Positions 14,385-16,418 of a stretch of 64,000 nt of DNA are shown here, in pieces. A model generated the notes under the pieces. It did not search any database. It had not been told where the DNA came from and saw only the letters and a program-made list of their open reading frames with translations. The stretch comes from Candidatus Rifleibacteriota bacterium (GTDB taxonomy: Bacteria > Muiribacteriota > Ozemobacteria > Ozemobacterales > Ozemobacteraceae), in NCBI GenBank assembly GCA_015233565.1, contig JADFXM010000027.1:1-64000 (forward strand), read 5' to 3'. Numbering within the stretch: position 1 is the stretch's first letter; every line of letters starts with the position of its first letter. Made by a program: the position numbers and the translations under genes.

Positions 14385-14546
14385 TAACTTTTTCAACGGT
14401 TTACAACGCCAGAGGCTTGATCGAACCTATCAATTTGCTTGATTACTTTTAAGAATTGGTATCATTCCTGCCAAAAATTTGGGGTTGATTGAAAGATTTT
14501 CCATGTTGTGTTAAGATTCCCTCCACAAAAACTAAAGAGGGAAAAA

Positions 14547-14984
14547 ATGAAGGCTGAACAACTTAAACTTTTGTATGAAGCCATGGTTGAGGGGAATTTT
14601 AACCAGCTCAAAATTGAAAGAGGGCCAGTTAAAGTAAAAATGTCTCGAACACCTGGTATTTTTCTCGCTGATCAAGCTGAAGAGTCTTCCCAAGCCCAAC
14701 CGGAGAATACTGAACCTGAACAAAGTAAAAGCAAAAAAGTTCTCTCAGAACACATAGGAGTATTTTCCTTTGGGAAAAAGAAAAAATCGGTTGGAATGCC
14801 TATTAAACAAGGCGAAATCCTGGGAAGCATAAAGGGAATCAGTCACCAGGACAACGTCGTGGCTCCCTTATCAGGAAAGATTACATCAGTCGGAATCAAT
14901 GAAGGGACTATCGCAGAATTCGGAATGACATTGTTCGAGATTCTTCCCGAAGAAATGATTGAGGAACAGTCTTCCGAAATTTGA
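14547..14984 (+). CDS. AccB-like biotin/lipoyl-domain protein lacking the biotinylation lysine motif (BADC-like)
   Basis: AccB-like N-terminus MKAEQLKLLYEAMVEGNFNQLKIERGPVKVKMSR; C-terminal domain IKQGEILGSIKGISHQDNVVAPLSGKITSVGINEGTIAEFGMTLFEILPE; directly upstream of accC. Confidence 0.8.
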   Translation: MKAEQLKLLYEAMVEGNFNQLKIERGPVKVKMSRTPGIFLADQAEESSQAQPENTEPEQSKSKKVLSEHIGVFSFGKKKKSVGMPIKQGEILGSIKGISHQDNVVAPLSGKITSVGINEGTIAEFGMTLFEILPEEMIEEQSSEI

Positions 14985-15011: not shown

Positions 15012-16418
15012 ATGTTCAATAAATTGTTAATTGCAAATAGGGGGGAGATCGCTGTCCGAATAATCAGGACCTGCCGAAGACTTGGAATAAGAACAGTTGC
15101 TGTTTTTTCCGAGGCCGACAGAGACGGAATGCATGTTTCAATGGCAGATGAGGCATACTGTATTGGGCCGGCAAGACCAGATCTTTCCTATTTAAATATT
15201 TCCAATCTGCTTTCAGTCGCGCATATCACCAAATGCGACGCTATTCATCCCGGTTATGGGTTTCTTTCTGAAAACCCGACTTTCTCAGAAATTACTCAAA
15301 AATGTGGATTCGCATTTGTAGGCCCTTCCCATCGAGCTATTGAAAGGATGGGACAAAAATCCGTAGCCCGCGATTTGATGCATCGCTCAGGAGTTCCAAT
15401 TCTTCCGGGCTCCCCCAATAGCCTCGAAAACCCCGATGAAGCGCAGGAAATAGCAAATTCTATCGGATACCCTGTTCTCATTAAGGCTTCCGCCGGCGGT
15501 GGTGGACGGGGAATGCGTCTTTGCGAAAATAAGGACCAATTCAAGAATCTCTTTCTGAACGCTACCGGGGAAGCCAAATCAGCGTTTGGAGACGGAAGAG
15601 TCTACCTTGAAAAATATCTTGCCGAACCGCGCCACATTGAAATCCAGGTTTTCGGTGACACCTTTGGCAATGTACTGGTTCTGGGGGAACGGGAATGTTC
15701 CATTCAACGCCGTCATCAAAAGCTTATCGAAGAGGCTCCTTCGCCTGCCATCAGCGATGAAATACGGAAAAAAATGTATGAAACCGCAATTAAAGCTGTT
15801 AAAGCCATTGAATACGTTAACGCTGGAACAATAGAATTCCTACTGGATAAAAACGGGAATTTTTATTTCATGGAAATGAACACGCGCCTCCAGGTTGAAC
15901 ATCCTGTCACAGAAATGATTTGGGGAATTGACATGGTTGAACTTCAACTCAGAATAGCTTCAGGCGAAAAAATTCCCTATGCCCAGGAGGAGCTGCACCC
16001 AAGAGGATGGGCTATCGAATGCCGGATAAACGCAGAAGATGTCACAAATAACTTTACTCCGAGTCCAGGCAGGATCACCCAATTTATTGTCCCGGGAGGC
16101 CCCTGGGTAAGAGTTGATTCCGCCGCGTATCCTAATTATTTTGTCAGTCCTTCCTATGATTCAATGATTGCAAAATTAATTGTTTGGGCACCAACTCGAA
16201 GTGAGGCAATTAATCGCATGGCAACAGCCCTAAGAGAATTTCGGATAGATGGAATTAAAACCACTATCCCTTTCCAACTATTCGTGATGAAGAACCATGA
16301 TTTCGCTGACGGACTTTTCTCAACAAAATTTGTCGAGACTAATTCTCCGGCATTCCTTGCACAATATAATCCGGAAACTCCCCAAAATTCGCTTTTCATG
16401 GTATCTGAAGGAAAATAA
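15012..16418 (+). CDS. accC: Biotin carboxylase subunit of acetyl-CoA carboxylase
   Basis: FNKLLIANRGEIAVRIIRTCRRLGI, KASAGGGGRGMR, FMEMNTRLQVEHPVTEMIWG. Confidence 0.95.
   Translation: MFNKLLIANRGEIAVRIIRTCRRLGIRTVAVFSEADRDGMHVSMADEAYCIGPARPDLSYLNISNLLSVAHITKCDAIHPGYGFLSENPTFSEITQKCGFAFVGPSHRAIERMGQKSVARDLMHRSGVPILPGSPNSLENPDEAQEIANSIGYPVLIKASAGGGGRGMRLCENKDQFKNLFLNATGEAKSAFGDGRVYLEKYLAEPRHIEIQVFGDTFGNVLVLGERECSIQRRHQKLIEEAPSPAISDEIRKKMYETAIKAVKAIEYVNAGTIEFLLDKNGNFYFMEMNTRLQVEHPVTEMIWGIDMVELQLRIASGEKIPYAQEELHPRGWAIECRINAEDVTNNFTPSPGRITQFIVPGGPWVRVDSAAYPNYFVSPSYDSMIAKLIVWAPTRSEAINRMATALREFRIDGIKTTIPFQLFVMKNHDFADGLFSTKFVETNSPAFLAQYNPETPQNSLFMVSEGK

Follow-up and report, generated by a model that had tools for sequence, protein, structure and literature searches.

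The gene next to accC in a draft genome of Candidatus Rifleibacteriota raises the question of what an AccB homologue could be doing in the accB position once it has lost the lysine that carries biotin. Carbon is committed to fatty acids by acetyl-CoA carboxylase (ACC), a target for both drugs and biofuel production. The locus lies in a stretch of 64,000 nucleotides (the window) within contig C105 of an 8.3-Mb draft assembly that is 94.75% complete with 8.49% contamination. The gene occupies positions 14547..14984 of the + strand as an open reading frame of 145 aa, with a Shine-Dalgarno-like AAAGAGG at 14535-14541 directly 5' of its ATG, and its product, a lysine-less paralogue of AccB, is given the working name AccB'. 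The biotin carboxylase gene accC (15012..16418, + strand) starts 27 bp 3' of the accB' gene, is a genuine member of its family (TIGR00514, 685 bits) and is the sole Biotin_carb_C gene in the genome, so that the placement of a lysine-less copy in the accB position, as proposed in the first-pass annotation, is borne out. The open reading frames 3' of accC were read by eye as xseA, xseB, ispA, ispD, ispE and dxr.

AccB' has the layout of a full-length AccB homologue, with an N-terminal alpha-beta-beta part, a linker and a barrel-sandwich domain. Curated models recognise it weakly, the biotin carboxyl carrier protein (BCCP) model TIGR00531 giving 23.6 bits (cut-off 115.2) and the Pfam Biotin_lipoyl model 18.6 bits (cut-off 22.1), and no DNA-binding domain was found with the curated family models. 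When the single AccB' sequence was used as a query no related loci were found, while a family alignment used as the query found eight named related loci, which place the family in Candidatus Riflebacteria. A profile of the AccB' family matches E. coli AccB (4hr7_B) end to end (E=2.7e-23), with the N-terminal part aligning to 4hr7_B from residue 21 onward and a thumb region that is shorter than in canonical AccB. The acceptor hairpin is aligned gap-free, as ILGSIKGISHQDNV against TLCIVEAMKMMNQI, and the acceptor residue of this and every other AccB copy was read from the aligned column. In AccB' it is a serine in place of the lysine, at residue 99 (codon AGT, 14841..14843, + strand), and the (E)AMK(M/L) motif is absent. 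The serine substitution and the missing EAMKM-like motif described from the sequence at the outset are therefore both confirmed by an ungapped alignment.

The predicted structure is in agreement with this layout. An AlphaFold2 model, computed from nine sequences (the window protein and the eight named loci), contains a helix at residues 3-15 and strands at 20-24 and 29-33, which make up the N-terminal part (residues 1-33; 14547..14645, + strand) with block means of pLDDT of about 69-78 up to residue 30. A disordered linker follows, and then the biotinyl-like barrel-sandwich domain (residues 63-134; 14733..14948, + strand), which is delimited by the model, by Foldseek and by the alignment, and has a pLDDT of about 90. 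The top Foldseek match of the model is the biotinyl domain of E. coli BCCP (1bdo, TMt 0.79); further biotinyl domains come next, and Arabidopsis BCCP1 (9a87) ranks lower. Together with the full-length match to 4hr7_B, this substantiates the earlier description of an AccB-like N-terminus joined to a C-terminal biotinyl domain. The strands of the predicted hairpin span residues 91-96 and 101-105, and its tip (G97-H100), where a lysine was looked for, holds Ser99 instead. A model resembling 1bdo with Ser99 at the tip therefore suggests that the fold has been retained and that the modified residue alone has been lost.

A protein of this fold could still act as a carrier if biotin or another modification were placed on a different residue, for which K96 would be the obvious candidate, being the lysine closest to the tip position (three residues earlier) and common in family f1 of the alignment. 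Nonetheless, the lysine-less AccB domain has no conserved lysine column. The K96 column is occupied by lysine in 35% of the lysine-less rows, by arginine in one Riflebacteria genome (G009) and mostly by other residues in the remaining lineages, including the genera and phyla whose acceptor position is N, G, Q or H, and lysine-bearing AccB proteins are encoded in the same genomes. The family alignment indicates that lysines near the hairpin tip do not substitute for the missing acceptor, and such a carrier appears very improbable.

The remaining components of the enzyme are encoded elsewhere in the source genome. A genome-wide search found one canonical AccB (190 aa, EAMKLMNEI) on contig C152, one BirA-type ligase on contig C119, and one pair of adjacent AccD and AccA genes on contig C127. 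Of the two alternatives offered at the outset, a genuine AccB encoded elsewhere or an unusual enzyme, the first is the one that was found, and the search for BirA was likewise successful. Since the genome contains a single AccC and a single lysine-bearing AccB, AccC must work with the AccB encoded on C152 while the dead AccB is made alongside. Contamination of the draft genome was considered as a cause of the split between AccB' and AccB and was rejected, because relatives have the same arrangement. As a separate observation, the lysine-bearing accB of Riflebacteria directly adjoins a dihydrolipoamide dehydrogenase (lpd) gene at L001:112-2058 (the source genome, G000, contig C152) and at 16 further loci, a pairing retained in three families of the phylum with identities of 40-71% between the lpd products.

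A search of 57 genomes, of which 40 belong to the Riflebacteria phylum, has revealed how regular this arrangement is. An ACC-type AccC was found in 35 of the 40 Riflebacteria genomes, and in all 35 the gene directly upstream is lysine-less, with S, N, G, Q or E at the acceptor position; a pattern that is fixed in 35/35 related genomes is not due to chance. The five Riflebacteria genomes without a lysine-less gene are also without an ACC-type AccC: three (G007, G013 and G021) are 64-75% complete, and two (G026 and G030) contain only a lower-scoring AccC that resembles those of acyl-CoA carboxylases. Thirty of the 35 genomes also encode a lysine-bearing AccB at another locus, each acceptor having been read residue by residue, and the five in which none was found (G002, G009, G020, G022 and G038) are assemblies that are 67-83% complete. 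In genus g11 the lysine-bearing AccB has SSCKN rather than EAMKM, identically in three species (L222, L223 and L226, from G014, G019 and G018), so that even the genuine carrier there has an unusual biotinylation motif. Two further loci, L206 and L209, come from records titled Erysipelotrichia bacterium and Candidatus Methylomirabilis sp.; they group with Riflebacteria by sequence, have the same gene arrangement and are 61% and 53% identical to the query, respectively, and the record titles are probably wrong.

Eight pairs of lysine-less genes gave dN/dS ratios of 0.10-0.23, which indicates that purifying selection conserves the lysine-less protein. The low scores against the family models might have been those of a decaying, functionless accB remnant or of an assembly error, but the gene is intact in the 96 genomes in which such copies were read, and these ratios and the good predicted fold also stand against that explanation, which deserves next to no credence. 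A pseudogene, an assembly error and a shifted lysine were all rejected for AccB', on the grounds of selection and of there being no conserved alternative lysine.

Lysine-less copies have also been detected in other phyla, through a profile search of 382 genomes in which the best-scoring loci were inspected, followed by sampling of two phyla. Outside Riflebacteria, the 382-genome search added 11 genomes, in which the acceptor position holds G, D, H or N. Of 60 genomes in the phylum of genome G208, which looks like Fusobacteriota, 51 match the family profile, and glycine at the tip with accC beside the gene was observed in all 41 genomes inspected (G061, G208 and G346 among them); this phylum is represented by two main families with genomes of 1.2-4.5 Mb. 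A third phylum, that of G056, contributed 12 more genomes with G, H, N or Q, others having a normal AccB. In total, lysine-less copies were read in 96 genomes from at least three phyla, 61 of them outside Riflebacteria and many of them drafts, a number that reflects targeted searches by similarity to the AccB' family and does not measure how common such copies are among all bacteria. Over all these copies, the residues read at the acceptor position are S, N, G, Q, D, E and H. The single oddity of the first-pass annotation has in this way become a widespread bacterial family.

The partner of the lysine-less copy may not be the same enzyme throughout. In G181 and G318, two genomes outside Riflebacteria, the copy is located away from accC, beside genes read by eye as lysS-like and gpmI-like, and in these two genomes and G107 (L218, L220 and L221) a lysine-bearing AccB-like domain, including its N-terminal part, is fused at the C-terminus of a protein resembling pyruvate/oxaloacetate carboxyltransferases, in frames of 605-629 aa; all three genomes encode a lysine-less AccB as well. 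Because of this fusion and of the copies away from accC, the partner enzyme in these three genomes may differ from ACC. The fusion also favours an explanation in which AccB' and AccC would in general be part of another biotin carboxylase, such as pyruvate carboxylase, with the carrier supplied by another subunit. In the source genome, however, the canonical AccB is the only lysine-bearing Biotin_lipoyl protein of such a kind that was found, and the carboxyltransferases found are AccA and AccD, which makes this explanation distinctly unlikely. In a further genome, G274 (L122 and L224; 98% complete), the gene for a lysine-less AccB follows an efp-like gene and adjoins accC; a canonical AccB was not found there, the only biotin-domain frame being one of 75 aa.

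The evolutionary history of the family was approached through AccB trees built without the hairpin columns, which leaves about 131-134 columns and long branches. In a tree of 97 rows, 36 of the 37 lysine-less rows form one group that also includes a single lysine-bearing row. When the 37 lysine-less rows were held as one clade, the log-likelihood exceeded that of the free search by 4.0 (p-AU 0.55), and with 47 lysine-less rows it exceeded that of a quick free search by 47.0 (p-AU 0.91). A single origin of the lysine-less copies is compatible with these data and somewhat favoured by the aligned sequences, with long-branch attraction possible on so short an alignment. The AccC tree is not congruent with the state of the neighbouring gene, the AccCs with lysine-less partners not forming one clade and seven changes of neighbour state being required; the gene has therefore either moved between lineages, been old and often lost, or arisen several times. 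Sequence divergence is high among the lysine-less copies, and residues that bind partners may therefore not be conserved. One AccB adjacent to accC (L165, from G185) has a lysine (EAMKHKNEI) and is without a thumb, lies inside the lysine-less cluster of the tree, and is possibly an intermediate or a reversal. A broader proposition, for which the odds appear to be about even, is that lysine-less AccB constitutes an ancient bacterial family of single origin that is a fixed noncatalytic ACC subunit in several phyla; the plant proteins known as BADC (biotin attachment domain-containing) would then be either a convergent second invention or a descendant of it, and what has been seen as a plant-specific feature would be a general one.

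Taking these observations together, AccB' is best explained as a noncatalytic subunit of the AccC sub-complex of heteromeric ACC, a reading to which we assign a probability of roughly 0.68. The protein would derive from AccB, has lost the biotin-acceptor lysine, and would be made in an operon with AccC. The N-terminal part of E. coli AccB is needed for association with AccC, and AccB' would bind AccC, and probably AccB too, through its retained N-terminal part and barrel-sandwich domain. The AccC sub-complex would then contain biotinylated AccB together with the dead copy. In E. coli this sub-complex reportedly consists of two AccC and four AccB, and by analogy the dead AccB could occupy some of the four AccB places. 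Its likely effect would be to set the assembly of the enzyme or the occupancy by the carrier, as BADC does in plant plastids, an analogy that allows for both a glue and a brake. Where the first-pass annotation envisaged a dedicated regulatory or scaffold subunit, a noncatalytic subunit is indeed the best explanation, considering that the protein is conserved and always next to accC within the phylum, while down-regulation has found no support here.

A role mainly in expression is the other way of reading the position of the gene, AccB' then being a regulator that controls transcription of accB'-accC, or a sensor of the apo-carrier, through its N-terminal part or its dead domain, and not a fixed subunit. 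E. coli AccB is said to autoregulate the accBC operon, and both the fixed position at the start of the accC operon and the preserved AccB-like N-terminal part would suit such a role. This reading is nonetheless rather unlikely: the curated models found no DNA-binding domain, and a barrel-sandwich domain under purifying selection is not obviously something that an expression regulator needs.

If the noncatalytic-subunit reading is right, several consequences follow. Should a dead AccB be maintained beside accC in many bacteria, ACC reconstitutions from such phyla have lacked a component, and annotations that name the gene adjacent to accC a biotin carrier are wrong in these phyla. The question of whether such subunits act as inhibitors or as assembly factors would also become addressable in simpler bacterial systems.

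AccB' can be compared with three known systems. With canonical AccB/BCCP (TIGR00531; E. coli AccB, 4hr7 and 1bdo) it shares the domain order, the N-terminal part, the barrel-sandwich fold and the place upstream of accC, and it differs in having no acceptor lysine, in the loss of EAMKM, in a thumb that is shortened in the source lineage and in a score far below the TIGR00531 cut-off. The small AccE-type 'glue' subunits of some bacterial acyl-CoA carboxylases are likewise noncatalytic and aid the assembly of a biotin-dependent carboxylase, belong to a different enzyme class and, to our knowledge, are not AccB homologues. These subunits are referred to in PMC11926652 and PMC3199775. Plant BADC, here taken from its published descriptions and compared by features, has a low identity to BCCP (25-30%), interacts with both BC and BCCP, and has been reported to inhibit in vivo and to act in vitro as an assembly 'glue' (PMC11926652); it has also been described as a competitor of BCCP for BC (PMC7712654). 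A paper from 2025 considers BADC subunits to be unique to the plant enzyme (PMC11926652), searches of the open literature yielded no description of a lysine-less AccB from bacteria, and no BADC appears among the PDB matches listed for the AccB' family profile. AccB' differs from BADC in being bacterial, in forming an operon with accC, in occurring throughout whole phyla and in having no transit peptide. Like Arabidopsis BADC1-3, noncatalytic subunits of the plastid heteromeric ACC, AccB' is a BCCP homologue without the lysine of AMKL/AMKM, and it coexists with a genuine BCCP in the same organism, whose genome also encodes BirA. The presence of this kind of gene in the 96 genomes suggests that a look-alike of the carrier without catalytic function is incorporated into acetyl-CoA carboxylase in many bacteria, as it is in plants.
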